Assembly: GCA_021298015.1 (NCBI GenBank)
Contig: JAJTGY010000014.1
Span: 1 to 64,000, forward strand
Source of the DNA: Flammeovirgaceae bacterium
GTDB taxonomy: Bacteria > Bacteroidota > Bacteroidia > Cytophagales > Cyclobacteriaceae
Reading direction: 5' to 3'
Length of the DNA stretch: 64,000 nt
The first letter of the stretch is position 1; each line of letters opens with the position of its first letter. The notes under the pieces are model-generated. The model searched no databases and was not told the DNA's origin. It was given only the letters and a program-made list of their open reading frames with translations. Of the stretch, positions 3,391 through 62,549 are shown piece after piece. The translations under genes and the position numbers were made by a program.

Positions 3391-4665
3391 ATGATGCATT
3401 ACCGAGTCGCGCGTTTTCATTCTTTTTTAACCCTGCTTTTTTTCCTCACCGTCTCTTTTACCCTTTTCGCTCAGACTGTTCCGACAGATGACGAATCCAT
3501 CAAATCCGGGGAGCAATTATTTAAGACCAATTGTTACACCTGCCACCGCGTCAAGCAAAAGTGGACGGGCCCGGCCCTGGCAGGTTACGAAACCCGCGTA
3601 CCCTCCATTGCCTGGACCATCGAATGGGTGAAAAACTCGGCCAAGTTGATCGCCAGCGGGGACGAGTACGCCAACAAAATTTTTAAAGAGTACAATAACA
3701 GCCAGATGACGGCCTTCACTAACCTGAAGGACGATCAGATTCTCGATATTTTAGCTTATGTAGAAGCTGAGGCCAAGAAAGTTGATGCTCCTGCACCCGG
3801 TCAGGATACCGCTGCTCAGGCTGGTGGCGGTGCAGCTGTTCCCTCCGCCTACCTCAACCTGATCATCATCGGCATGTTTGTGATCTTGTTGTTGTTGCTG
3901 GTGATATTGGTGCTGATTGTTAATGCATTAAAGAAATTTCTAAACCAGCGTGACCTCAGTGAAGAGGACAAAGACGTAGTAGAGTCTCCTTACACAGCCG
4001 CCTCGATCATTCGCAGCCCGGGCTTCATCTTCGTGGTGGTGTTTGTGGTTTCGGCCGTAGTCTTCAAAACGGTCATAGACGGCCTGTACTCCATAGGCGT
4101 GCAGCAAGGGTATGCGCCTAAGCAACCCATTGCCTTCTCCCACAAAATTCACGCAGGCGTCAATGAGGTGGATTGCAAGTACTGCCATACCGGTGTACTC
4201 AAAGGCAAACAGGCCAACATCCCCTCGGCCAACATTTGTATGAACTGCCATACCTATATCCAGCAAGGCGCAATTTCCGGCACAGCCGAGATTTCAAAAA
4301 TTTATGCTGCGGTGGGTTACGACCCCGCCACCGGCCGGTATAGCGGCAAGCAAAAGCCAATCGAATGGATTCGCATCCATAACCTTCCGGACCTCGCTTA
4401 CTTCAACCACGCCCAGCACGTGAACGTGGGTAACATTGAATGCCAGACCTGCCATGGCCCAATTCAGGAAATGGATGTGGTAAAGCAATACTCGCTATTG
4501 ACGATGGGATGGTGCATTGACTGCCATCGCAAAACCAATGTAAACACCAAAGACAATGCCTACTATGACAAGTTGGAGCAGTTACACAAGGCCGCGAAAG
4601 GCCAGAAGGCTGCCATGAAAGTGGAGGATATTGGTGGTTTAGAGTGTGCCAAGTGCCACTATTAA
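3391..4665 (+). CDS. actA: Alternative Complex III subunit ActA, hexaheme cytochrome c
   Basis: Quinol:cytochrome c/oxidase electron transfer subunit on the periplasmic face. The 424-residue protein has a signal peptide, a monoheme cytochrome c domain (CYTCH at residue 48, likely axial Met in NNSQMTAF), an Ala/Gly/Pro linker, two transmembrane helices (about 155-180 and 210-230), then a multiheme domain with five more CxxCH motifs: CKYCH (262), CMNCH, CQTCH, CIDCH and CAKCH at the extreme C-terminus. Described ActA proteins are pentaheme; the N-terminal domain is an addition. First gene of the operon, 33 bases before actB. The two start Met codons at 3391 and 3394 are equivalent choices. Confidence 0.92.
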   Translation: MMHYRVARFHSFLTLLFFLTVSFTLFAQTVPTDDESIKSGEQLFKTNCYTCHRVKQKWTGPALAGYETRVPSIAWTIEWVKNSAKLIASGDEYANKIFKEYNNSQMTAFTNLKDDQILDILAYVEAEAKKVDAPAPGQDTAAQAGGGAAVPSAYLNLIIIGMFVILLLLLVILVLIVNALKKFLNQRDLSEEDKDVVESPYTAASIIRSPGFIFVVVFVVSAVVFKTVIDGLYSIGVQQGYAPKQPIAFSHKIHAGVNEVDCKYCHTGVLKGKQANIPSANICMNCHTYIQQGAISGTAEISKIYAAVGYDPATGRYSGKQKPIEWIRIHNLPDLAYFNHAQHVNVGNIECQTCHGPIQEMDVVKQYSLLTMGWCIDCHRKTNVNTKDNAYYDKLEQLHKAAKGQKAAMKVEDIGGLECAKCHY

Positions 4666-4698: not shown

Positions 4699-7600
4699 AT
4701 GAGCAATACAACCAAAACGTACTGGAAGGGTCTGCCGCAACTGACCAACGACCCGAACTACGTGAAGCATGCCGATAAGGAGTTTGTTGACCTGGGCGTT
4801 GACCAAGATCCCGGCCACTCGCGCAGGGATTTCCTGAAGATGATGGGCTTCAGCGTAGCCGCGGTTTCTCTCGCTGCCTGCGAAGCTCCGGTGCGTAAGG
4901 CCATACCTTATATCAATAAGCCGGTTGATGTTGATCCAGGCATTCCCAATTATTATGCCTCCAGCTATGTTAATGGTGGCGACTACTGCTCGATTGTAGT
5001 AAAAGTGCGCGATGGACGTCCGATCAAGGTTGACGGAAACTCGCTCTCAAAAGTGACGTTGGGCGGTACCAGCGCCCAGGTTGAGGCATCGGTTTTGTCG
5101 CTCTACGATAACTACCGGCTACGGGGCCCGAAAGTTGGCACTGCCAACGCTGACTGGGACAAGGTGGACAGTGAAGTGATTGCCAAGTTGGGCGAGATTG
5201 CCGCTAAAGGTGGACAAATTCGCCTGGTTAGCCAGACTATTCTGAGCCCCAGCACACAACAGGCGATTGCCGCTTTCAAAGCGAAGTACCCCACCACGCA
5301 GCACATCCAGTATGACCCCGTGTCGTACTACGGGATTTGGAAAGCCAATGAAGAATCATTTGGCACGGGTATGATTCCATCTTACGATTTCAGCAAGGCT
5401 AACGTAATCGTGAGTATAGGTGCAGACTTCCTCAACACCTGGCTCGCCCCAATTGAGTTTTCAAAGCAATACGCAACTACACGCGAAGTCAGTGAAGACA
5501 AGCGCGAAATGTCTCGTCACTACCAGTTCGAGTCCAACCTTTCGCTTACAGGAGCCAATGCCGACTACCGCACTGCTATCCGTCCGTCCCAAGAAGGTTT
5601 GGTGGTAGCCGCGCTTTATAATCTTCTTGCCGGTAAGGCAGGCGTAGCGGGTATTTCATCTACCCTTAGTGGCGTGGCCAACCTGGAAAAAGCCGCAGGC
5701 GAGCTGTGGGAAAACCGGGGAAAGTCCGTGGTGGTCAGCGGCTCGAACGATAAGGCTGTTCAGGTCGTGGTCAATGCCATCAACAACTTGTTGGGCAACT
5801 ATGGTTCTACCATTCTTCCGGGGCTTCCCGTCAACTACCGTCAGGGTAATGACGAGGCCATGGCGGCTTTCATTGCCGAGGCCGAAGGCGGAAAAGTAGA
5901 CGGTGTGATTTTTTACAACTGCAACCCGGTGTACGATCACCCGATGGGTGAGAAGTTGGAGAAAGCGATCAAAGCGATGGCTTTGTCGGTGTCAACCTCT
6001 TACACCGAGGATGAAACGGCTTCGGCCTGTGCCTACAAAGCACCCGATCATCATTACCTCGAGTCGTGGAACGACTTTGAACCCAAGAAGGGACATTACT
6101 CGCTTTCGCAGCCGGCCATTACACCGATTTTTAAATCGCGCCAGGCCCAGGAAAGTTTCATGACGTGGGCCGGTGTGGCCAATGCCGATTACTACTCGTT
6201 TGTACAGAACAACTGGAAGAGTAAGTTTTTTGCCAACGATAGCCAGGGCTGGGACTTCCAGACCTGGTGGGACCAGCGTTTGTATGATGGCGTGTATGAG
6301 AGTGGCGCCTCTGCCGGGGGCAGCGTATCATTCCGCAACGAAGCTTTATCATCAGCCGATAGCAGCATTGGTGCGACCTACAAAGCAAACGCCAGTGGCA
6401 TAGAGCTGGTAATTGCCGAGAGTGCTACCGTAGGCAATGGCAGTATGGCCAATAACCCGCTGCTTCAGGAGTTACCCGATCCGATTACGAAAGCGGTTTG
6501 GGATCACTACGTAACCCTTTCGCTGAAGGACGCCAATGCACTGGGCATTAAGAACGATGCAGAAGGACGCACGCAGTTGGTCAGTGTATCAGCTAATGGT
6601 AAAACCGTAAAAGTAGCCGCCCTCGTGCAGCCCGGCCAGGCGCAAGGCACCGTGGGTATTACACTGGGTTACGGTCGCACCAAGGTGGGTACCGTAGCCG
6701 AGAATTTAGGCGTGAATGCCTACACGCTGCTTTCTATGCTGAACGGTTCTGTGAATTATTCAGCTACCAGCGGAGTGAAAGTTGAGAAAGTCAACGAAGA
6801 TTTTCAGATCGCCCAGACGCAGATCCACCAGACCTACATGGGGCGGACGAATGTGATTCAGGAGTCTACACTGGCGGAGTTCAAGAAAGATCCGGCAGCA
6901 GGTCGGGAAAACCCGATGATTACCAAGTGGGATGAGAAAGTAGAAGCTGCGTCCTTGAGTTTGTGGAAAGGCCACGAATATAAGAGCCACCACTGGGGTA
7001 TGGCCATTGATTTGAACACCTGTACCGGTTGCGGTGCGTGTGTAGTGGCCTGTAACGTTGAAAACAACGTGGCCCTGGTTGGCAAGCAGGAGGTTATCAA
7101 CAGGCGTGAAATGCACTGGCTGCGGATTGACCGCTACTACAGTTCAGATGCCCAGCCTGGTGATTACGAGGGCTTGGAGCAGGCATCAGAAAATCCGGAA
7201 GTTACCTTCCAACCGATGTTGTGTCAGCATTGCAACAACGCGCCTTGCGAAACGGTTTGCCCGGTAGCGGCCACCACGCACAGCTCGGAAGGTCTCAACC
7301 AAATGACGTACAACCGTTGTATCGGTACACGCTATTGTGCCAACAACTGCCCGTATAAAGTAAGACGCTTCAACTGGTTTAAGTACCACGACAACCAGCA
7401 GTTCTATCAGTCGAACCCGGCTATGAATACAGATCTCGGCCGCATGGTGCTCAACCCGGAAGTAACCGTCCGTTCGCGCGGGGTTATGGAAAAGTGCTCG
7501 TTCTGTGTGCAGCGCATCCAAACGGGTAAACTCACTGCGAAGAAAGAGAAGCGTGAGCTGAATGATGGCGAAGTGATAACCGCTTGCCAGGCTTCGTGCT

Positions 7601-7848
7601 CAACGGGTGCCATCGTCTTTGGTGACATGAACAACCCCGAAAGCCGCATCAGCAAGTTGTTGAAGATTGATCACTACAAGACGGTGAAGAACGCGAAAGG
7701 AGAGGAAGAGAGAGTCTTCAACTACGGTATTGACAAGAAGATTGGCAATCCGCGGGCGTACCGTGTGCTGGAAGAAATCGGTGTGAAGCCGAACATCTTC
7801 TACCTCACCAAGATCCGCAACAAGGACGGCAAAAAGGAAAACGCCTGA
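4699..7848 (+). CDS. actB: Alternative Complex III subunit ActB, molybdopterin-like/iron-sulfur protein
   Basis: 1049 residues. A twin-arginine signal (SRRDFLKMMGF) near residue 42 and a lipobox-like LAAC follow a short N-tail. The first two thirds resemble the molybdopterin oxidoreductase (CISM B1-type) domain, which in ACIII is known to lack cofactor. The C-terminal third is a four-cluster ferredoxin-like domain: CTGCGACVVAC near residue 775, CQHCNNAPCETVC near 842, CIGTRYCANNC near 874 and CSFCVQ with CQASC near 934-958. It passes electrons between ActC and ActA. Position, between actA and actC, is as in known ACIII operons. Confidence 0.95.
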   Translation: MSNTTKTYWKGLPQLTNDPNYVKHADKEFVDLGVDQDPGHSRRDFLKMMGFSVAAVSLAACEAPVRKAIPYINKPVDVDPGIPNYYASSYVNGGDYCSIVVKVRDGRPIKVDGNSLSKVTLGGTSAQVEASVLSLYDNYRLRGPKVGTANADWDKVDSEVIAKLGEIAAKGGQIRLVSQTILSPSTQQAIAAFKAKYPTTQHIQYDPVSYYGIWKANEESFGTGMIPSYDFSKANVIVSIGADFLNTWLAPIEFSKQYATTREVSEDKREMSRHYQFESNLSLTGANADYRTAIRPSQEGLVVAALYNLLAGKAGVAGISSTLSGVANLEKAAGELWENRGKSVVVSGSNDKAVQVVVNAINNLLGNYGSTILPGLPVNYRQGNDEAMAAFIAEAEGGKVDGVIFYNCNPVYDHPMGEKLEKAIKAMALSVSTSYTEDETASACAYKAPDHHYLESWNDFEPKKGHYSLSQPAITPIFKSRQAQESFMTWAGVANADYYSFVQNNWKSKFFANDSQGWDFQTWWDQRLYDGVYESGASAGGSVSFRNEALSSADSSIGATYKANASGIELVIAESATVGNGSMANNPLLQELPDPITKAVWDHYVTLSLKDANALGIKNDAEGRTQLVSVSANGKTVKVAALVQPGQAQGTVGITLGYGRTKVGTVAENLGVNAYTLLSMLNGSVNYSATSGVKVEKVNEDFQIAQTQIHQTYMGRTNVIQESTLAEFKKDPAAGRENPMITKWDEKVEAASLSLWKGHEYKSHHWGMAIDLNTCTGCGACVVACNVENNVALVGKQEVINRREMHWLRIDRYYSSDAQPGDYEGLEQASENPEVTFQPMLCQHCNNAPCETVCPVAATTHSSEGLNQMTYNRCIGTRYCANNCPYKVRRFNWFKYHDNQQFYQSNPAMNTDLGRMVLNPEVTVRSRGVMEKCSFCVQRIQTGKLTAKKEKRELNDGEVITACQASCSTGAIVFGDMNNPESRISKLLKIDHYKTVKNAKGEEERVFNYGIDKKIGNPRAYRVLEEIGVKPNIFYLTKIRNKDGKKENA

Positions 7849-7883: not shown

Positions 7884-9263
7884 ATGCAAGTAACTTCCGC
7901 GATTCGCGAACCCCTGGTAACCGGTGGCAAATCGGTGGCCGATGTTTCGGAGGACATTAGCCGGCAGGTAGAAGCCGCGCCCGCCCGTTCGTGGTGGATG
8001 GCCTTTGGTTTCTCCCTCGTGCTGCTGCTCTTTGGCCTTTACTGCGTATGCATTATGCTGTGGGAAGGCATTGGCATGTGGGGTTTAAATAAAACCGTAG
8101 GGTGGGCATGGGACATCACCAATTTCGTTTGGTGGGTCGGTATCGGTCACGCAGGTACGCTCATTTCGGCCATTCTGTTATTGTTCCGCCAGCGTTGGCG
8201 AATGTCGATCAACCGGGCGGCTGAGGCCATGACCATTTTTGCGGTGATTTGTGCGGCCAGTTTCCCGGCCTTCCACATGGGTCGCCTCTGGCTCGGATTT
8301 TACTGGGCGCTGCCGCTGCCCAATGCGTTTGGATCACTGTGGGTGAACTTTAACTCTCCGCTGTTGTGGGATGTATTTGCGATCTCCACTTACTTCTCGG
8401 TTTCTTTGGTGTTTTGGTATATGGGTCTCATTCCGGACTTCGCGGTTATTCGCGACCGTGCCGTTGCCATGGGGCACAAAACCCGCGCGTTGATTTATAA
8501 TGCCTTAAGTTTTGGATGGGACGGAGCCGCCCGCACCTGGAGCCGCTACGAATCGGTGGCGTTGATTTTGGCCGGCCTTTCAACACCCCTCGTGCTGTCG
8601 GTTCACACCATCGTTTCCTTTGACTTTGCTACGTCTGTTATTCCCGGCTGGCATACCACCATCTTCCCGCCCTACTTTGTGGCCGGTGCGATCTTCTCCG
8701 GCTTCGCGATGGTGTTAACCCTGCTGCTGGTAACGCGCAAGGTTTTCAAACTCGAAGATTACATCACCATCTACCACATTGAGTTGATGAACATTGTGAT
8801 CATCATCACGGGTTCTATCGTGGGTATCGCCTACATCACCGAGTTCTTCATTGCCTGGTACGGTCAGGTGCCCGCAGAACAATACGCATTCATCAACCGC
8901 GCTACGGGTCCGTACTGGTGGGCCTACTGGAGTATGATGACGTGTAACGTGATTTCGCCCCAACTCTTCTGGTTCAAGAAATTGCGCACCAACATTGCCG
9001 CCACGTTTGTATTGTCCATCATTGTGAACATCGGCATGTGGTTCGAGCGCTTTGTAATTATCGTGACTTCGCTTCACCGCGATTACCTGCCTTCGAGCTG
9101 GTCTATGTTTTATCCCACCATGTATGATGTGGGTCAGTACGTATTCACGTTCGGTATTTTCTTTACGGCTTACTTCCTGTTCTCCAAGTATTTCCCGGTG
9201 ATCAACATGGCCGAAGTCAAGAGTATTATTAAAGCAACATCAGAACGCAAGCACCATGGATAA
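7884..9263 (+). CDS. actC: Alternative Complex III subunit ActC (NrfD/PsrC-like quinol-binding membrane protein)
   Basis: 459 residues, about ten transmembrane helices, matching the NrfD/PsrC family of polytopic quinol-oxidising subunits. Recognisable family features are the WWVGIGHAGTLISAILLLFR helix near residue 90, the segment with AAEAMTIFAVICAASFPAFH near 115, and VSVHTIVSFDFATSVIPGWH near 240. It is one of two NrfD paralogues in the complex (the other is ActF). The stop codon lies inside actD (8-base overlap), pointing to translational coupling. Confidence 0.95.
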   Translation: MQVTSAIREPLVTGGKSVADVSEDISRQVEAAPARSWWMAFGFSLVLLLFGLYCVCIMLWEGIGMWGLNKTVGWAWDITNFVWWVGIGHAGTLISAILLLFRQRWRMSINRAAEAMTIFAVICAASFPAFHMGRLWLGFYWALPLPNAFGSLWVNFNSPLLWDVFAISTYFSVSLVFWYMGLIPDFAVIRDRAVAMGHKTRALIYNALSFGWDGAARTWSRYESVALILAGLSTPLVLSVHTIVSFDFATSVIPGWHTTIFPPYFVAGAIFSGFAMVLTLLLVTRKVFKLEDYITIYHIELMNIVIIITGSIVGIAYITEFFIAWYGQVPAEQYAFINRATGPYWWAYWSMMTCNVISPQLFWFKKLRTNIAATFVLSIIVNIGMWFERFVIIVTSLHRDYLPSSWSMFYPTMYDVGQYVFTFGIFFTAYFLFSKYFPVINMAEVKSIIKATSERKHHG

Positions 9264-9780
9264 AGGCAAACACTATCTGGTTGGAGTATTCAATGATGAG
9301 GACGTGCTGCTGCATGGCGTAGAGCACATTCGCGAGAAAGGCGTACGTATCGAAGAAGTGTACACACCCTTTCCGGTTCACGGGCTTGACGAAGCACTGG
9401 GGTATAAGCGGTCACGCTTACCGATAGCCGCTTTCCTGTTTGGCATGACGGGCACCATGCTGGCGCTAACCATGCAGATCTGGATGTTGGGTTTTGACTG
9501 GCCGATGATTATTGGGGGTAAGAACTTTGCTTCCCTGCCGCCTTTCGTGCCGGTAACATTTGAGTTAACGGTGTTGCTGGCTGCCTTCGGTATGGTTGGT
9601 ACTTTTATGATCGTTAGTGATTTGAAGCCCTACAAGTGGCCCCGCCAGTTTGATATCCGCAGCACGAACGACAAGCATGTGATGGCCATTGATTTGGCCA
9701 GCAACAAACTTTCGAAGGATGAAATTGCCCGCATCCTGAAGGAAAACGGTGCAGAAGAAGTCAACGAAAAGAATTTCTAA
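9256..9780 (+). CDS. actD: Alternative Complex III subunit ActD (DUF3341)
   Basis: 174 residues with an N-terminal soluble alpha/beta domain (YLVGVFNDEDVLLHGVEHIR) and two transmembrane helices (about residues 58-78 and 97-120), the layout of DUF3341/ActD. The segment PFPVHGLDEALG near residue 37 is a family hallmark. The subunit packs against ActC in known ACIII structures; its role is structural or regulatory. It overlaps actC by 8 bases and precedes actE by 4. Confidence 0.93.
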   Translation: MDKGKHYLVGVFNDEDVLLHGVEHIREKGVRIEEVYTPFPVHGLDEALGYKRSRLPIAAFLFGMTGTMLALTMQIWMLGFDWPMIIGGKNFASLPPFVPVTFELTVLLAAFGMVGTFMIVSDLKPYKWPRQFDIRSTNDKHVMAIDLASNKLSKDEIARILKENGAEEVNEKNF

Positions 9781-9784
9781 GTCT

Positions 9785-10426
9785 ATGCGCAAAGGAATAA
9801 TAGCAATTGTGTTGGGTGCGGCCGCGGTACTGGCCGGTTGCAAAGCCGGTGGCGATTACCAGGGTTTGGAGTATGCGCCCAACATGTATCACTCGGTGGC
9901 TTACGAACCGTTGAGCCAGATAACGGATGAAAGTGCCGGCACGATTGTCAATTCATTGGACAACGGTCGTGGCGAATACTTTAATTCGAATAAGTACAAT
10001 CCGTATGGCATGAACTCGCGCGAGCCCGCTCCGAATACGGTGAAGCGCGATCAGCGCGGATGGCTGCCTTATCGTGGCAAACGCATCGCAAAAGACAGCA
10101 TTCCGGCCTATACGGCTAAGCTCTCTAACCCGTTACGCAAGGACACCGCGCAGGTGGCCGCCTACCTGGAGCAGGGCAAAGTGTTATACGTATCACAATG
10201 CCAGCATTGCCATGGCAAAACGGGCGCAGCCGAAAGCAAGATCGCACAGAATTATGCCTTAGGTGTGGCCAACCTGAAAGCGGAAAACTACCTGGGAATT
10301 ACGGAAGGACACATTTTTCATGTGATCACTTTTGGCGCGGGTAACATGTTGCCGCACGGCAGCCAGGTTAGCCCGGACGACCGTTGGAAAATCGCCATGT
10401 ACGTAAAGCAATTACAGAGCAAATAA
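9785..10426 (+). CDS. actE: Alternative Complex III subunit ActE, monoheme cytochrome c lipoprotein
   Basis: 213 residues from ATG 9785, chosen because it begins a lipoprotein signal (MRKGIIAIVLGAAAVLAGC) 4 bases after actD; the frame is open to 9749, inside actD. One heme-c site, CQHCHGKTG at residue 139; an axial Met is likely in the segment GAGNMLPHGSQV. The protein is anchored in the periplasm and hands electrons to the next carrier or the oxidase. Order actD-actE-actF matches known operons. Confidence 0.93.
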   Translation: MRKGIIAIVLGAAAVLAGCKAGGDYQGLEYAPNMYHSVAYEPLSQITDESAGTIVNSLDNGRGEYFNSNKYNPYGMNSREPAPNTVKRDQRGWLPYRGKRIAKDSIPAYTAKLSNPLRKDTAQVAAYLEQGKVLYVSQCQHCHGKTGAAESKIAQNYALGVANLKAENYLGITEGHIFHVITFGAGNMLPHGSQVSPDDRWKIAMYVKQLQSK

Positions 10427-10447: not shown

Positions 10448-11794
10448 ATGATAGCGGACGAAAAATTCGAGTTTACCTCCGGTGCCAAGCGAAAAATCAT
10501 ATACCTCGCGTTAGCGGGTATGTTCTTTCTCGGTGTCGGTCTGTGGATGGCCATGAGTGATGGTCACGGTGCTGGGCATGATGAACATGCAGCCGTGGTG
10601 AATCAGTCGCTGGTGGCGTCAACCAACGCAGTAGGGGCGGAGCCGGAGGCGGCCGGAGGCGAGCATCATGGAAGCGCACCGTGGCTGAAGCGCCTATACA
10701 CCTCGTTGTGGCATAACAATGTGTTCTTTGCCGGCATCGGTGTAATCGGTTTGTTTTTCATTGCGATTCAGTATGCCGCGCAGGCGGGCTGGTCGGCTCC
10801 AATTAAGCGCATTCCGCTGGCCATCGGGCATTGGATTCCCATTGCCGGTGTGATGATGGTGGGTCTCTGGTTTTTGGTGAAGGGCGATGTGTTTCATTGG
10901 ACCCACCACGACCTGTATGTAAAAGATACCCCCGGATACGACAAGATACTGGATGGTAAGTCGGCTTACTTCTTCTGGCCCTTTGCGGCTGGGGGGTTTC
11001 CGATCTTTTTCGTGGTGCGCATGATTGCCTTCTTTGGCTTGTGGTACCTTTTCTTCACTTGGATTAAGAAGGAAATGCTGGCCGAAGACCTGAGCGGCAA
11101 CACCGCCCACTTCTTCAGTGCCCGCAAGTTCTCGGCTATCTTCCTGGTCATCTTCGGTGTTACCTCTTCGGTTGCCGCCTGGGATTGGATTATGAGTATT
11201 GACACACACTGGTACAGCACCATGTTTGGCTGGTACATGTTTGCGAGCTGGTGGGTGACGGGCCTGGCGTTTATTACCCTCATTGTGGTGAACCTGAAAG
11301 ACGCAGGGTACCTGAAGATGGTGAACTCCAACCACCTGCACGACCTCGGCAAATTTGTGTTTGCCTTCAGCATTTTCTGGACGTACATCTGGTTCGGCCA
11401 GTTCCTGCTGATCTATTACGCCAACATCCCGGAAGAAACCGTCTACTTCATCACCCGTATGAAGACGGCACCGTACAGCTGGATTTTCTTTCTTAATCTG
11501 TTACTAAACTTTGTGCTTCCCTTCTTGTTATTGATGACGAGAGACGCCAAACGCCAAATGTCGATGCTGAAGGTGGTAACGCCTATCGTGATTCTTGGCC
11601 ATTGGTTTGACTTTTATAACATGATAACCCCCGGGGTGATGAAAGGTGAAGGAGGATTTGGGTTTTTGGAATTGGGCTTGCTGATGATTTTCCTGGCGGC
11701 CTTCCTTTACATCGTATTGAATGCCCTTTCTAAAGTTCAGCTGGTAGCCAAGAACCATCCGTTCATGCCCGAGAGTTTGAACCACCACATTTAA
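10448..11794 (+). CDS. actF: Alternative Complex III subunit ActF (NrfD-like membrane protein)
   Basis: 448 residues, about ten transmembrane helices, second NrfD-like subunit of the complex, paralogous to ActC. A first helix is followed by a His/Glu-rich periplasmic loop (DGHGAGHDEHAAVV), then helices with recognisable segments such as WDWIMSIDTHWYSTMFGWYM near residue 250 and WTYIWFGQFLLIYYANIPEE near 315. It ends 24 bases before coxB, so complex III and the terminal oxidase are cotranscribed. Confidence 0.93.
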   Translation: MIADEKFEFTSGAKRKIIYLALAGMFFLGVGLWMAMSDGHGAGHDEHAAVVNQSLVASTNAVGAEPEAAGGEHHGSAPWLKRLYTSLWHNNVFFAGIGVIGLFFIAIQYAAQAGWSAPIKRIPLAIGHWIPIAGVMMVGLWFLVKGDVFHWTHHDLYVKDTPGYDKILDGKSAYFFWPFAAGGFPIFFVVRMIAFFGLWYLFFTWIKKEMLAEDLSGNTAHFFSARKFSAIFLVIFGVTSSVAAWDWIMSIDTHWYSTMFGWYMFASWWVTGLAFITLIVVNLKDAGYLKMVNSNHLHDLGKFVFAFSIFWTYIWFGQFLLIYYANIPEETVYFITRMKTAPYSWIFFLNLLLNFVLPFLLLMTRDAKRQMSMLKVVTPIVILGHWFDFYNMITPGVMKGEGGFGFLELGLLMIFLAAFLYIVLNALSKVQLVAKNHPFMPESLNHHI

Positions 11795-11818: not shown

Positions 11819-12898
11819 ATGATGACCTTTTTGATAGTTGCGGCAGTAGTACTGGTAATAGCCATCCTCTACCTGATCTTCCGAATCGGAAATCTGGTAG
11901 GTGTGGTGAAGGGTAAAGAGGGCGATGCGGTCAGCGCTATGAATAACACCAATGCATGGCTTTTTATGTTGTTTTTGGTGGCCGGGCTCTCGGTTTTCTT
12001 TTGGTATTCGTTCACCTATTTTGCTGACTACACGCTTCCGGTGGCCTCCGAGCATGGGGTTGTTACGGATGGCTTGTTTTGGACCACCATGTGGATTACC
12101 GTTGGGTCTTTCACCATCATTTTCATCGGCTTGTTTTGGTTCACCTTCAAATACAGGTACGATAAGAACCGGAAAGCATCATTCTTTGCCGATAACCATT
12201 ACCTTGAATTAACCTGGACGATTGTTCCAGCCATTGTATTGACATTATTGATTTTCAAAGGACTTACCGCCTGGACAGATATCACCGGACCTGCCAAAGA
12301 CGATGCGGTTGTGATTGAATTAGTAGCGCAACAGTTCGCCTGGACATCCCGATACCCGGGAGTAAAAGACGGCCAGTTGGGTAAGAATAATTACCAGATG
12401 ATTGACGCGTCTAATGAGTTTGGCATCGATCTGTCAGACAAGCACTCATTCGATGACTTTAAATCGCTGGAACTTCACCTGCCAAAAGGCCGCGAGGTAT
12501 TGTTAAAAATTCGGGCGAAAGATGTTCTCCATTCCGTTTTCCTGCCGCACTTCCGTGTGAAGATGGATGCCGTGCCCGGTATTCACACCACGTTCAAGTT
12601 TACGCCCACGAAGTCAACCAACGACATGCGGGCCGAAACGGGTAATTCAAACTTCAATTTTGAGATGGCGTGCACCGAAATTTGCGGAAAAGGCCATTTC
12701 TCCATGAAGTTCCCCGTGTACGTACACGACAGCTACGAGGATTATGTGGCCTGGATGACCCAACAGGAAACCTGGCTGAAGCAAAACCCCGACTACCTGA
12801 AGCGCGTGCCGGCAGAACTGCGCGAGGTAGCCATGATTAAAGCCGGTTTGCCGCTGGAAAGTGTGGCAGCTCCGCAGGTAACTCAAACGTCCAACTAA
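11819..12898 (+). CDS. coxB: Cytochrome c oxidase subunit II (CuA protein)
   Basis: 359 residues with an N-terminal helix and the two-helix COX2 hairpin, then the periplasmic cupredoxin domain. CuA ligands are visible: His in DVLHSVFLPHFRVKMD near residue 238 and the C-x3-C-x3-H-x2-M set in CTEICGKGHFSM near residue 285. No CxxCH follows, so this is not a caa3-type subunit; electrons must come from ActA/ActE or a separate cytochrome. An insert of about 35 residues (SRYPGVKDGQLGKNNYQMID region) lies between the beta strands. A second ATG directly follows the first. Confidence 0.95.
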   Translation: MMTFLIVAAVVLVIAILYLIFRIGNLVGVVKGKEGDAVSAMNNTNAWLFMLFLVAGLSVFFWYSFTYFADYTLPVASEHGVVTDGLFWTTMWITVGSFTIIFIGLFWFTFKYRYDKNRKASFFADNHYLELTWTIVPAIVLTLLIFKGLTAWTDITGPAKDDAVVIELVAQQFAWTSRYPGVKDGQLGKNNYQMIDASNEFGIDLSDKHSFDDFKSLELHLPKGREVLLKIRAKDVLHSVFLPHFRVKMDAVPGIHTTFKFTPTKSTNDMRAETGNSNFNFEMACTEICGKGHFSMKFPVYVHDSYEDYVAWMTQQETWLKQNPDYLKRVPAELREVAMIKAGLPLESVAAPQVTQTSN

Positions 12899-12913: not shown

Positions 12914-14797
12914 ATGGCAACCATCGATATCGACATCAAATCCGCCCAGCAGCACGATAGCCATGAGCACGATAGCCATGAGCACGAGCACCACGAAGGT
13001 AACTTCTGGACGAACTATATTTTCAGCCAGGATCACAAAGTAATTGCCAAGCAGTTCCTGATCACGGGCATGTTTTGGGCGCTGATCGGAGGCGTTCTCT
13101 CAGTGATCTTCCGTTTGCAACTTGGTTTTCCGGAAGCGAATCTCGAATGGCTTCGCCCGGTGCTGGGCGGCTGGATAACCCCGGAAGGAAAAATTGATGC
13201 TGAATTCTACCTGGCGCTCGTGACCATGCACGGAACCATCATGGTGTTCTTCGTATTGACAGCCGGCCTGAGCGGCACATTCAGTAACTTCTTAATCCCC
13301 CTGCAGATTGGTGCGCGCGATATGGCTTCCGGCTTCATGAACATGCTGTCCTACTGGTTCTTCTTTTTGTCCAGCGTGGTGATGCTGAGTTCCTTGTTCC
13401 TATCTACCGGCCCGGCCGGTGGCGGGTGGACAGTCTATCCCCCTCTGAGCGCGTTGCCTCAAGCTATCCAGGGTTCTGGTCTAGGCATGACGCTGTGGCT
13501 TGTATCAATGGCGTTGTTTATTGTAAGTACGTTGCTGGGAGGTATTAACTATATCACTACCATCATCAACATGCGTACGCAGGGCATGTCATTTACAAAG
13601 ATGCCCCTCACCGTGTGGGCTTTCTTCTTTACAGCTATCATCGGATTGTTGTCGTTCCCGGTGTTGTTCGGGGCGGCCTTGTTGTTGATATTCGACCGTA
13701 GTTTTGGCACCAGTTTCTTTTTGTCGGACATCTACATCGGAGGGGAGGCCCTGCCCAATGTAGGCGGCAGCCCGATCCTGTTCCAGCATTTGTTCTGGTT
13801 CCTGGGGCACCCGGAGGTTTACATTGTGTTGTTGCCGGCATTGGGAATTACCTCTGAAATCATTGCGACTAATTCACGCAAACCGATATTTGGATACAAA
13901 GCCATGGTGGGCTCCATGTTGTTTATTGCGATCCTCTCCTTCGTGGTATGGGCACACCATATGTTCGTAACCGGTATGAATCCATTCCTGGGTTCCATCT
14001 TCACCCTGCTGACGCTCATCATTGCTGTTCCCTCTGCGGTTAAAATATTCAATTATGTAACCACTTTGTGGCGCGGCAATATCAAGTTCACAGCGGCCAT
14101 GTTGTTCTCCATTGGCCTGGTGTCCTTCTTTCTTACCGGTGGTATTACGGGGATATTCCTCGGCAATTCAGCCGTAGACATTCAGCTGCACGATACCTAC
14201 TTTGTTGTGGCACACTTCCACCTGGTAATGGGTAGCGCCTCTTTCTTTGGCATGATGGCCGGGGTGTATCATTGGTTCCCCAAGATGTTTGGCCGAATGA
14301 TGGACGAACGCCTGGGCACTATTCACTTCTGGCTCACGTTCGTGGGTGTCTATCTCGTGTTTTTCCCCATGCACTACATCGGTATCGCGGGCTTCCCGAG
14401 GCGTTATTACTCCTGGACGAGCTTTGAAACCTTCAGTGGTTTCGCTGACCTCAATATGCTGGTGAGTGTGGCAGCTATTCTCACCCTATCGGCCCAGTTC
14501 CTGTTCCTGTTTAACTTTATCTACAGCATTTTCCGCGGTCGTCTGGCCCCGGCTAATCCCTGGAACTCGAACACGCTGGAGTGGACAACGCCTCGTTTAC
14601 CTCAGCACGGCAACTGGCCGGGTGCGATTCCTACCGTTTATCGTTGGCCCTACGACTACAGCAAGCCGGGTGCGAAGGAAGACTTTATTCCGCAGCACAT
14701 TCCTTATTCGGAAACACCTGAATCGAACCTGCCTCATGAAAATGAGCAGATCAAGCTGGAAGGTGTTGTGGTTAAGCCTTCGTCAGGTCACCACTGA
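12914..14797 (+). CDS. coxA: Cytochrome c oxidase subunit I (heme a / a3-CuB)
   Basis: 627 residues, twelve core transmembrane helices. Diagnostic segments: ALVTMHGTIMVFFVLTAGLS carrying a low-spin heme ligand region, FLGHPEVYIVLLPALG near residue 295 with the His-Tyr cross-link pair of the binuclear centre, WAHHMFVTGM with two CuB His near 345, and HDTYFVVAHFHLVMG near 425 with the heme a and a3 ligands. The N-terminus is a His/Glu-rich tail with a short repeat (HDSHEHDSHEHEHHE) that may bind metal. Downstream are the heme A synthesis genes. Confidence 0.97.
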   Translation: MATIDIDIKSAQQHDSHEHDSHEHEHHEGNFWTNYIFSQDHKVIAKQFLITGMFWALIGGVLSVIFRLQLGFPEANLEWLRPVLGGWITPEGKIDAEFYLALVTMHGTIMVFFVLTAGLSGTFSNFLIPLQIGARDMASGFMNMLSYWFFFLSSVVMLSSLFLSTGPAGGGWTVYPPLSALPQAIQGSGLGMTLWLVSMALFIVSTLLGGINYITTIINMRTQGMSFTKMPLTVWAFFFTAIIGLLSFPVLFGAALLLIFDRSFGTSFFLSDIYIGGEALPNVGGSPILFQHLFWFLGHPEVYIVLLPALGITSEIIATNSRKPIFGYKAMVGSMLFIAILSFVVWAHHMFVTGMNPFLGSIFTLLTLIIAVPSAVKIFNYVTTLWRGNIKFTAAMLFSIGLVSFFLTGGITGIFLGNSAVDIQLHDTYFVVAHFHLVMGSASFFGMMAGVYHWFPKMFGRMMDERLGTIHFWLTFVGVYLVFFPMHYIGIAGFPRRYYSWTSFETFSGFADLNMLVSVAAILTLSAQFLFLFNFIYSIFRGRLAPANPWNSNTLEWTTPRLPQHGNWPGAIPTVYRWPYDYSKPGAKEDFIPQHIPYSETPESNLPHENEQIKLEGVVVKPSSGHH

Positions 14798-16734: not shown

Positions 16735-17328
16735 ATGGAGAATGTGATGAAGAATGATATCCGCATTGTGGAGGAGCCGCGCAAGCCCCTGGCGATGCAT
16801 CCCAAGAAGTTTGCCATGTGGCTGTTTCTGGCTAGTGTGCTGATGTTGTTTGCTGCGTTTACCAGCGCGTACATCGTGCGGCAAGCCGAGGGCGACTGGG
16901 TAATTTTCGACCTGCCGGACATGTTTACGTTTACCACGGTGGCTATTCTGGCCAGCAGCATACCGGTGCAGTGGGCGTACTTTGCCGCCCGGAAAAATCA
17001 ACAGAACCTGGTGGTGGCCCTCCTGGGTATCGGCACGGTTTTAGGCATTTTGTTTCTGGCCGGCCAGTGGCAGGGGTGGGGGCAGTTGGTGGATAACCAT
17101 ATTCACCTGGTGGGCAACCCGTCAGGGTCCTTTTTCTACCTCATCACGGGTTTGCATGGTCTACACATTATCAGTGCTGTCATTTACCTGATCATCACGC
17201 TCGTACGGGCGCACCGCGGAATTATTCATTCAGGCAACCTGGCACCCCTGGAAATGTGCGTTACGTACTGGCATTTTTTGGGAGGACTTTGGCTATATTT
17301 GTTCGTCTTTTTATTATTGAACCGATAA
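16735..17328 (+). CDS. coxC: Cytochrome c oxidase subunit III (short, first copy)
   Basis: 197 residues, five helices, heme-copper oxidase subunit III family. Typical segments: KKFAMWLFLASVLMLFAAFT, then FFYLITGLHGLHIISAVIYL and MCVTYWHFLGGLWLYLFVFL at the C-terminus. This five-helix form is paralogous to the next gene; Bacteroidetes operons often carry two subunit III genes. It starts 1 base after ctaB. Start could also be ATG at 16747. Confidence 0.92.
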   Translation: MENVMKNDIRIVEEPRKPLAMHPKKFAMWLFLASVLMLFAAFTSAYIVRQAEGDWVIFDLPDMFTFTTVAILASSIPVQWAYFAARKNQQNLVVALLGIGTVLGILFLAGQWQGWGQLVDNHIHLVGNPSGSFFYLITGLHGLHIISAVIYLIITLVRAHRGIIHSGNLAPLEMCVTYWHFLGGLWLYLFVFLLLNR

Positions 17329-17338
17329 CATTCGATCT

Positions 17339-18112
17339 ATGGCACACACAACGGTAGCAACAGCACCGGGCAAGAGTATCTGGGATGGGGGCGTATCGCC
17401 CATGGGCGCCAGCTATGGCAAACTCATGATGTGGTTTTTCCTGCTTTCCGATGCTTTTACGTTTTCTGGCTTATTGATTACCTACGGCTTGGTCCGCTCT
17501 TCGCACCAGGCCTACCAGGGAACCATTGATGCCTTTACGTTTTCAACCGAGTACTGGCCTGTACCCGAAAAGGTATTTGAGGCCGTTCCGTTCCTGCATG
17601 GTGTTGAGTTGCCGCTCGTGTTTGTGGGTATCATGACCTTTATCCTCATTATGAGTTCGGTGACCATGGTTTTGGCCGTAGAGGCCGGACATCGCATGGA
17701 TCGCAAAGCCGTAGAGAAGTGGATGCTGTGGACGATACTGGGCGGGATCACCTTCCTAGGCTGCCAGGCATGGGAGTGGACACACTTTATAGTAGGCACC
17801 GGAACACCAACGGTTAAAACCATTTTCGATTCAGTTACGGGGCTCTCTCAGCAGATTGACGTGTATGGCGCCAACCTGCATGTGAATCAGTATGGGCCGC
17901 AGACGTTTGCCAACTTCTTCTTCTTTATTACCGGCTTCCACGGGTTTCACGTGTTCAGCGGTGTGTTGCTGAACTTCTTGATTTACTACAACACGGTGAC
18001 GGGTGTTTACGACCGGAGAGGCCACTATGAAATGGTGGAGAAGGTAGGTTTGTACTGGCACTTTGTAGATCTGGTGTGGGTGTTTGTGTTCACCTTCTTC
18101 TACCTTGTGTAA
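17339..18112 (+). CDS. coxC: Cytochrome c oxidase subunit III (long, second copy)
   Basis: 257 residues with about six or seven helices. Contains KLMMWFFLLSDAFTFSGLLI near residue 27, the loop region with VGTGTPTVKTIFDS, FFFITGFHGFHVFSGVLLNF near residue 195 and LYWHFVDLVWVFVFTFFYLV at the end, all typical of COX3. Longer than the neighbouring copy because of an insertion after helix 2. Ten bases separate it from the first copy and 33 from the subunit IV gene. Confidence 0.94.
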   Translation: MAHTTVATAPGKSIWDGGVSPMGASYGKLMMWFFLLSDAFTFSGLLITYGLVRSSHQAYQGTIDAFTFSTEYWPVPEKVFEAVPFLHGVELPLVFVGIMTFILIMSSVTMVLAVEAGHRMDRKAVEKWMLWTILGGITFLGCQAWEWTHFIVGTGTPTVKTIFDSVTGLSQQIDVYGANLHVNQYGPQTFANFFFFITGFHGFHVFSGVLLNFLIYYNTVTGVYDRRGHYEMVEKVGLYWHFVDLVWVFVFTFFYLV

Positions 18113-60066: not shown

Positions 60067-62430
60067 TTAAGATCGGGTACTGATCACAACCTTTTCAATC
60101 TTTCCGGTGAACTTCTCCTTGCCCTTATAGGGTGGATACACGGGTGTATTTTCATCTACTCCAACGTCAGCCGATTCATCGATACCAAACGTGTTGGCGT
60201 TTGTTTTTTCGATTTTTCCCTCCGCCACTTTTTTATCATCGATAAAAATGGATGCTATGCCGCCAGCTCCGCGGCCACCTTCATAGGCGAAATCAAACCT
60301 AAGGGTGTGTTTACCGGGCAGAAGCTTTGTGTTGGATGTAACGGTAAATGTCTCAAGCCCTACCCAATTGTAGGAGTAGGCCGGCTTGCCATCCAATACA
60401 TAAAATGTCCAACCACCAAAGTCGCCCCCCTGGCATACAATTACTCCATTTGTATTGGCTTTAACATCTACTTGCGCGGTTATGGTAAGCGAGGTGTTTT
60501 TGATATTGATGAACGCATTTTCGGGGATGCCGGTTGCGCCTTCATAAAGAGTAAGCGATGTTTTTCCGTTCATCAGGTCAGGCCGACCAGCAATAGCCGG
60601 ATCGAGTCGTTCAATTCCACGATCGTCAATCGGTAATACGTTGTACTTCACGGCTTCATCCATGAATTTCTTTTTCAGCTCCTCAAGTTTCCCCGGGTTC
60701 TCAGCGGCTACGTTTTTCGCCTGGCTGAAGTCTTCATTTACGTTGTACAGTTCCCAGATATCTTCGGTCAATGGCCTTCGGGGCTTAGCTTCCCAAGGTG
60801 CTTTGTGGATGGTGCCGGCAAACCAACCTTCATGGTAAATAGCCCGGTTGCCAATCATTTCGAAGTACTGTGTTTTTCTGATATCAGCGGCAGTGGCATT
60901 GTCAAACGAATACTTCATACTTACGCCCTCGATGGGGCGTTGCTCGATTCCATTTACAACACGAGGTGCGGGAACGCCTACGCATTCATACACCGTGGGT
61001 GCTACATCGATAACATGATGGAACTGAGAACGAACTTCATTTTTTGCCTGTATGCCTTTTGGCCAATGCATTACCATACCATTTCGGGTACCGCCAAAAT
61101 TGGAGGCTACCTGTTTGGTCCAGGTAAAAGGCGTGTTGCCCGCCACAGCCCAGCCAGCGGCAAAATGGTTATAGGTTTCTTCCGTACCCAGCTTGTCAAT
61201 TTTATCAAGCTGCATGTCGAGCGTTTCCTGGACACCGTTGAAATAGGTGTTTTCGTTAAACATACCGATCATGCCTCCCTCTGCACTAGATCCATTGTCG
61301 CCCACGATGTACAGAAAAATGGTATTCTCCAGTTCACCACGTTCTTCCAAAGCAGCCACGAGGCGACCGATTTCATAATCGGTGTGTTCGGCAAATCCGG
61401 CAAATACCTCCATTTGACGCTCAAAGAGGCGTTTCTCATCGGCTGTCAGGTCGTCCCAGTTTTTGATGGCTTCGGGTTTGGGTGCCAGCACGGTATTTTC
61501 AGGCACCACGCCAAGTTTCTTTTGGCGAGCCAGTGTTTCTTCGCGCACTTTATCCCAGCCCTGCGCAAACTTGCCCTTGTATTTTTCGATATAGCTTTTG
61601 GGCGAATGGTGCGGAGCATGAGTGGCACCGGTGGCAAAATACAGGTAAAAGGGCTTTTCAGGGGTCAAGGATTGTTATGTGTTCATCCAGGCAATAGCAC
61701 GGTCCGTCATGTCGGTGGTAAAGTGATAGTTGGGGTCCTCCACATTTGGGTAGACGCGCGTGTTGCCGTCATACACCATGGGGTGCCATTGGTTTGTTTC
61801 GCCACCAATGAATCCGTAAAACTTATCGAACCCAGAGCCGGTAGGCCAGCGGTCGTACGGCCCCGAAACAGATGCTTCCCAGGGGGGCGTCTCATGGTAC
61901 TTTCCAAAGGCAGCCGTGCTATACCCGTTCATGCGCAACACTTGAGCGGCAGGAGTTATGGATTGAGGACGGATGCCGGTATTACCCGGAAACGCAGTAC
62001 CTACTTCCATGATGGCACCGGCATTGTTCGAATGATGATTGTAGCCCGTTAGCAGAGCCGTGCGGGTAGGTGAGCACAAGGCCGTAGTATGAAACCGGTT
62101 ATACTTCAATCCGTTAGCGGCCAGTTTCTCCAGCGTGGGCATTTGAATGGGACCACCAAAGGCACTCGAATGACCGAATCCGATGTCATCGACCAACACA
62201 ATCACCACATTAGGCGCCTGATCAGGCTTTTTTGCCTCAAACCGGGCGGGCGCTTTTGCATTTCGTGCATCCAGTTCGGTAATGACGGGATACGTGGGTT
62301 CTTTGATTGGCAGAACCGTACGATCCAACTGACCGGGAACGGCTGTGGCTAATTCTGCTGTAGGAGGATTGCACGAAGCGATTCCCAAGGTTATGACACC
62401 GAGAAGTACCAAACGTAGTAATGCTTTCAT
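60067..62430 (-). pseudogene. Arylsulfatase with in-frame TAA
   Basis: From ATG 62430 a lipobox (LGIASC) precedes a sulfatase: NVVIVLVDDIGFGHSSAFGG near residue 80 (metal ligands) and TTALCSPTRTALLTGYNHHS near 115, where CSPTR is the FGly motif. The frame stops at TAA (61675-61677) after AIAWMNT, codon 252. It resumes in the same frame with QSLTPEKPFYLYFATGATHAP (residue 253 on) and runs 535 codons further to 60067, ending in a concanavalin-like C-terminal domain. Total 787 codons, normal for the family. Neither half has both the nucleophile and the full metal site, so loss of function is expected unless the codon is read through. Confidence 0.85.
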
Positions 62431-62549
62431 GGATTGATTGATAGGGTTTTGAGTTACGAATATCGCAAACTTAATCAGAAACGAATTGCGCAGGAGTGAA
62501 CGGCTACGTCTAATTTGCAAAAGCTGACGTACTGCCCGTAAAAAAGTGG

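Follow-up and report, generated by a model that had tools for sequence, protein, structure and literature searches.

Six heme c sites in ActA, one in an N-terminal monoheme domain, in a bacterial act-cox gene cluster and its relatives

Alternative complex III is encoded in this DNA next to a cytochrome oxidase, and its ActA subunit carries a cytochrome c domain ahead of the multiheme core. The question that this raises is whether the extra domain is peculiar to the organism and to what it would pass its electrons. The stretch that we analyzed, called the window, comprises the 64,000 nucleotides at positions 1 to 64,000 of contig JAJTGY010000014.1 from a Flammeovirgaceae bacterium. An earlier note on this DNA had described the domain as an extra one and suggested that it might pass electrons to the oxidase, in which subunit II has no heme c.

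ActA joins a monoheme cytochrome c domain to a pentaheme core

The features of the actA gene are as follows.

3391..4665, + strand: actA, six-heme ActA of alternative complex III, 424 aa, a single uninterrupted ORF
3499..3768, + strand: N-terminal class I monoheme cytochrome c domain, approximately residues 37-126 (Pfam PF00034)
3532-3546, + strand: CYTCH motif of the N-terminal domain
3706-3708, + strand: M106, probable Met ligand of the N-terminal domain
3826..4101, + strand: two membrane helices that link the N-terminal domain to the core (approximately residues 146-186 and 201-237)
4102..4662, + strand: pentaheme ActA core, with CXXCH at 4174, 4237, 4441, 4513 and 4645

Within the 424-residue ORF there are six CXXCH motifs, at residues 48 (CYTCH), 262, 283, 351, 375 and 419, in agreement with the six heme c sites that had been predicted for ActA from its sequence. 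Chance was rejected as the source of these motifs, since no more than two appeared in any of 20,000 shuffles of the ActA residues. The Pfam Cytochrom_C model (PF00034) matches residues 38-125 (E 4.6e-10) and Cytochrome_C7-type models match the core; these matches and the motif positions confirm that a monoheme cytochrome c domain precedes the helices and the five-heme core, as had been proposed. A misreading in which a separate gene encodes the N-terminal domain and only seems fused to actA was also rejected, given that the frame is uninterrupted and that the same fusion is found in 6btm_A, the ActA chain of F. johnsoniae.

Hydrophobic stretches are found at approximately residues 9-31, 146-186 and 201-237 (Kyte-Doolittle windows above 1.6), the first of which is read as a predicted signal peptide. 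We infer a topology in which the signal peptide is followed by a periplasmic domain and by two helices that would bring the chain back to the periplasmic side, where the five-heme core would lie. A His/Met class I cytochrome c is expected to keep the Cys and His residues of its CXXCH motif along with its Met ligand. In a 20-row ActA alignment chosen from loci of the organism's own class, C48, C51 and H52 do not vary at all, and M106 is nearly invariant.

The AlphaFold model of ActA (20-row alignment) has block pLDDT values of 84-97 over residues 31-130 and places helices at residues 152-188 and 210-234. The core is poorly modelled (mean pLDDT 60.4), and the model is good for the N-terminal domain only. 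When this part was compared with known structures using Foldseek, it was found to resemble R. marinus cytochrome c (3cp5 and 6cun; TM-scores by target of 0.69 and 0.74, respectively).

The adjoining oxidase has no heme c on subunit II

Seven further genes of the cluster follow actA on the same strand.

4699..7848, + strand: actB, with molybdopterin-like B1 and iron-sulfur B2 domains fused (Pfam Fer4 models)
7884..9263, + strand: actC, NrfD/PsrC-like (Pfam NrfD, E 7.8e-19)
9256..9780, + strand: actD (Pfam ActD, E 5.7e-64)
9749..10426, + strand: actE, monoheme, CQHCH at residue 151 (best PDB match 6btm_E, E 8.1e-16)
10448..11794, + strand: actF, assigned only by its position between actE and coxB
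11819..12898, + strand: coxB, cytochrome oxidase subunit II (Pfam COX2 and COX2_TM; CuA-type motif)
12914..14797, + strand: coxA, cytochrome oxidase subunit I (Pfam COX1, E 1.8e-146)

The cluster has the A-B-C-D-E-F gene order of alternative complex III, including a fused B1-B2 ActB, an NrfD-like ActC and ActD. ActA and ActE were assigned through the 6btm chains, ActB, ActC and ActD through Pfam and NCBIfam models, and ActF through position only, as the Pfam and NCBIfam searches returned no family match for it. The NCBIfam QrcB, QrcC and DsrO models match actB, all below their cut-offs, and ActB contains no CXXCH.

The earlier note had counted on ActE being present as well, on an oxidase subunit II without heme c, and hence on seven heme c per complex. 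All three points stand: ActE has one CXXCH, which together with the six of ActA makes seven c-heme sites at the level of sequence, and a search of CoxB for CXXCH found none, so that a subunit II with heme c was rejected. The oxidase therefore lacks the heme c domain on subunit II that marks caa3-type enzymes and, with its CuA-type motif, corresponds to an aa3-type partner. The motif in question is CTEICGKGHFSM at residue 285 of CoxB, which we take to be the CuA motif.

Elsewhere in the window, two adjoining genes (16735-17328 and 17339-18112, + strand) each give a match to oxidase subunit III models that falls short of the curated cut-offs, and a frame judged by eye to be sulfatase-like (60067-62520, - strand) consists of two same-frame ORFs split by an in-frame stop. 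The organism's own genome (G000) contains two more heme-copper oxidase subunit I genes (C85 and C86) outside the act-cox cluster.

The same architecture is present in F. johnsoniae

A PDB sequence search aligned residues 37-424 of the window ActA with 6btm_A, the 444-residue ActA of F. johnsoniae (E 1.4e-99, 336.2 bits), in an alignment that takes in the N-terminal domain and the heme site at residue 48. From this alignment, the Pfam match and the CXXCH at residue 48, the window protein has an N-terminal monoheme domain of the F. johnsoniae type before its membrane helices. The matches to R. marinus 6f0k_A, Chloroflexus 8k9e_A and Roseiflexus 6lod_A are confined to the core region, and these chains, 6btm_A and the five core CXXCH motifs together indicate that the five-heme core is homologous to that of solved ActA proteins.

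The F. johnsoniae system (6BTM) likewise combines a six-heme ActA, in which the N-terminal domain lies ahead of helices and core, with a monoheme ActE and an aa3 partner, although its ActA is longer (444 residues versus 424) and the two sequences have diverged. In the report on this complex (Lorencik et al. 2021, PMC8552683), the sixth heme of ActA is placed in a mobile N-terminal domain that was unresolved by cryo-EM and that, in the model proposed there, ferries electrons to cytochrome aa3. The 6btm_A chain has 221 residues in the structure library as compared with 444 in the sequence, which fits an unresolved domain. The same paper describes a physical supercomplex of alternative complex III and the oxidase with the mobile N-terminal domain, and it reports that aa3 activity is lost upon deletion of actA and is unimpaired upon deletion of actE. 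F. johnsoniae also has cytochrome bd according to that text (PMC8552683), whereas cytochrome bd subunit I was not found in the window organism's own draft genome (115 contigs).

The R. marinus complex, which is paired with a caa3 oxidase (6F0K; PMC5928083), shares the pentaheme ActA core and the monoheme ActE. It differs, according to PMC5928083 and PMC8552683, in that its ActA has no N-terminal heme domain and heme c sits on its oxidase subunit II. The Chloroflexus (8K9E) and Roseiflexus (6LOD) complexes share the multiheme ActA core, but their ActA chains, 219 and 226 residues long, match nothing outside the core region, which leaves no room for an N-terminal heme domain. Thus, the earlier statement that described complexes carry their sixth heme on ActE is correct for Rhodothermus marinus (PMC5928083) and does not extend to F. 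johnsoniae, in which ActA itself has six c hemes besides ActE (PMC8552683).

Six-heme ActA is the usual form in the class

Among the 58 genomes searched, consisting of the window organism's own and those of relatives, 55 gave a match and 54 contain the ActA core; three gave no match, and in one (G022) the match was a lone N-terminal-like cytochrome that was not counted as ActA. The N-terminal domain is present in 53 of the 54 core-bearing genomes (own included), the remaining one being cut by a contig end. Those scored as having the domain include one genome in which ActA lies on two contigs (G011) and two with adjoining matches (G019 and G046). In a wider sample of the phylum, 219 of 296 genomes gave a match. 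All 71 matched genomes of the organism's own class or nearer have the N-terminal domain; 70 of them align from residue 39 or earlier, and the other (G163) has two N-terminal hemes. At least two genomes of the class in this sample (G285 and G293) gave no match. Matches from other classes, among those listed, begin at residue 183 or later, and thus take in the core and membrane part only; what we say of other classes rests on the matches listed and on 20 fetched loci.

The fetched loci separate in the same way. ActA contains six CXXCH motifs in 19 of the 20 loci of the class and seven in one, whereas it contains five in 19 of the 20 loci from other classes and four in one, and an N-terminal heme domain ahead of the ActA core is absent from all 20 of the latter. 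Six CXXCH motifs are also found in every ActA of the best 80 of 595 confirmed stretches, a set of named loci biased toward window-like ActA because it was retrieved with a six-heme alignment. The named loci include Cyclobacteriaceae, Algoriphagus, Chryseolinea, Hymenobacter, Mucilaginibacter, Flavobacterium and Chitinophaga, names from which we infer that the class is Bacteroidia. Some of them are the same contigs as fetched genome loci, so that the 158 loci counted in the combined sets represent fewer than 158 independent genomes.

Six-heme ActA is therefore the usual form in the class and one already described by structure and genetics. As a discovery it carries little weight, the architecture being present in the sequence of a deposited structure and in a genetic study. 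What the survey does confirm is that members of the class generally have a tethered donor, unlike the sampled loci from other classes of the phylum.

CoxB and other possible c-type relays

CoxB was found in 18 of the 20 fetched loci of the class (two have no CoxB in the stretch) and in 62 of the 80 named loci (the best 80 of 595), and none of these CoxB proteins has a CXXCH. Of the 20 loci from the other classes, 16 yielded a CoxB. In six of these, CoxB itself carries a CXXCH; in the other ten, the stretch contains another ORF with the motif on the same strand, and two of the six (L063 and L074) have such ORFs in addition to the motif on CoxB. Four loci from other classes have no CoxB in the stretch; one of these (L069) has further CXXCH ORFs, and in the remaining three (L062, L067 and L078) no further CXXCH ORF was found in the stretch either. 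Within the class, further CXXCH ORFs occur in two of the 20 fetched loci, both with the CXXCH near the N-terminus. These ORFs were picked by motif alone and are candidate cytochromes.

Judged by these motifs, every locus from other classes in which CoxB was found has another possible c-type relay, and the class has the ActA domain instead. This pattern agrees with the idea put forward in PMC5928083 that the extra ActA domain apparently substitutes functionally for the cytochrome c domain on subunit IIc of caa3 oxidases. The pattern is incomplete and may go back to a single evolutionary event, and so is not a test repeated many times over.

In L063-L066, L068-L070, L072 and L074-L076, all from other classes, a much longer ORF of 379-455 aa with CXXCH at residue 293-373 matches ActE, and further CXXCH ORFs lie in the same stretch. 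In L060 (10672-11697, - strand) and L061 (8077-9081, + strand), the ORF that matches ActE has two CXXCH motifs (341 and 334 aa, respectively), and CoxB there also has a CXXCH.

The N-terminal domain as a probable electron donor to CuA

The window very probably contains the usual Bacteroidia act-cox cluster, in which electrons would run from menaquinol through ActC, ActB and the ActA core to a mobile N-terminal heme of ActA and then to CuA of the aa3 oxidase. Menaquinol would be oxidized at ActC, and electrons would enter the five-heme wire of ActA via the membrane-nearest cluster of ActB. They would then pass through or past ActE to the tethered monoheme domain, which would move and hand them to CuA of the adjacent oxidase, a task that in caa3-type partners falls to a heme c domain on subunit II. 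For the path and the mobility we rely on what has been published for F. johnsoniae and R. marinus, while the sequence anatomy and the spread of the domain were observed directly. Electron delivery by the ActA domain to an oxidase without heme c is the published F. johnsoniae model, with which our locus comparisons agree, and this shuttle model should apply to the window organism.

A different reading is that the N-terminal domain serves some other acceptor, such as a soluble cytochrome, another oxidase or a peroxidase, and that ActE or the core reduces aa3 directly. The two further oxidase subunit I genes outside the cluster would suit such an arrangement, and the F. johnsoniae authors do suggest that there is more than one acceptor, but their suggestion concerns ActE (PMC8552683). 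According to the same paper, aa3 activity does not depend on ActE and the N-terminal heme is the presumed donor to aa3, and CoxB lacks CXXCH in all loci of the class where it was found, all of which makes service to another acceptor improbable. That the domain is peculiar to this organism or to a narrow lineage, giving an unusual seven-heme complex, could draw on its absence from R. marinus and Chloroflexus-type ActA, but there is hardly any chance of it, given that the domain is present in F. johnsoniae (6btm_A; PMC8552683), in 53 of 54 ActA-core genomes from the 58 searched and in 71 of 71 matched class members. The earlier note had held that the domain would be ordinary if the known ActA proteins of the lineage already had it; they do, and the finding is ordinary.

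Tandem N-terminal domains in one genus

In one genus of the same class, that of G163, ActA can have two N-terminal monoheme domains in tandem. Among 17 genomes of this genus searched, 16 bear ActA, with seven CXXCH motifs in 11 and six in 5. Among four papers on alternative complex III listed by one literature search, none has a title or abstract opening about a tandem-monoheme ActA. It is conceivable, if somewhat doubtful, that the tethered heme domain is a class-wide and multipliable replacement for the c-type relay that elsewhere lies on CoxB or in separate genes; if so, the shuttle would be a modular, expandable tether and not a fixed part. The seven-CXXCH form is represented by the following gene.

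L096, 16711-18336, - strand: seven-CXXCH ActA (also in L180-L190)

In L096 the two tandem domains share 61% identity over 98 alignment columns. They bring the heme sites in this ActA to seven and, with the single CXXCH of the L096 ActE, those in the complex to eight.
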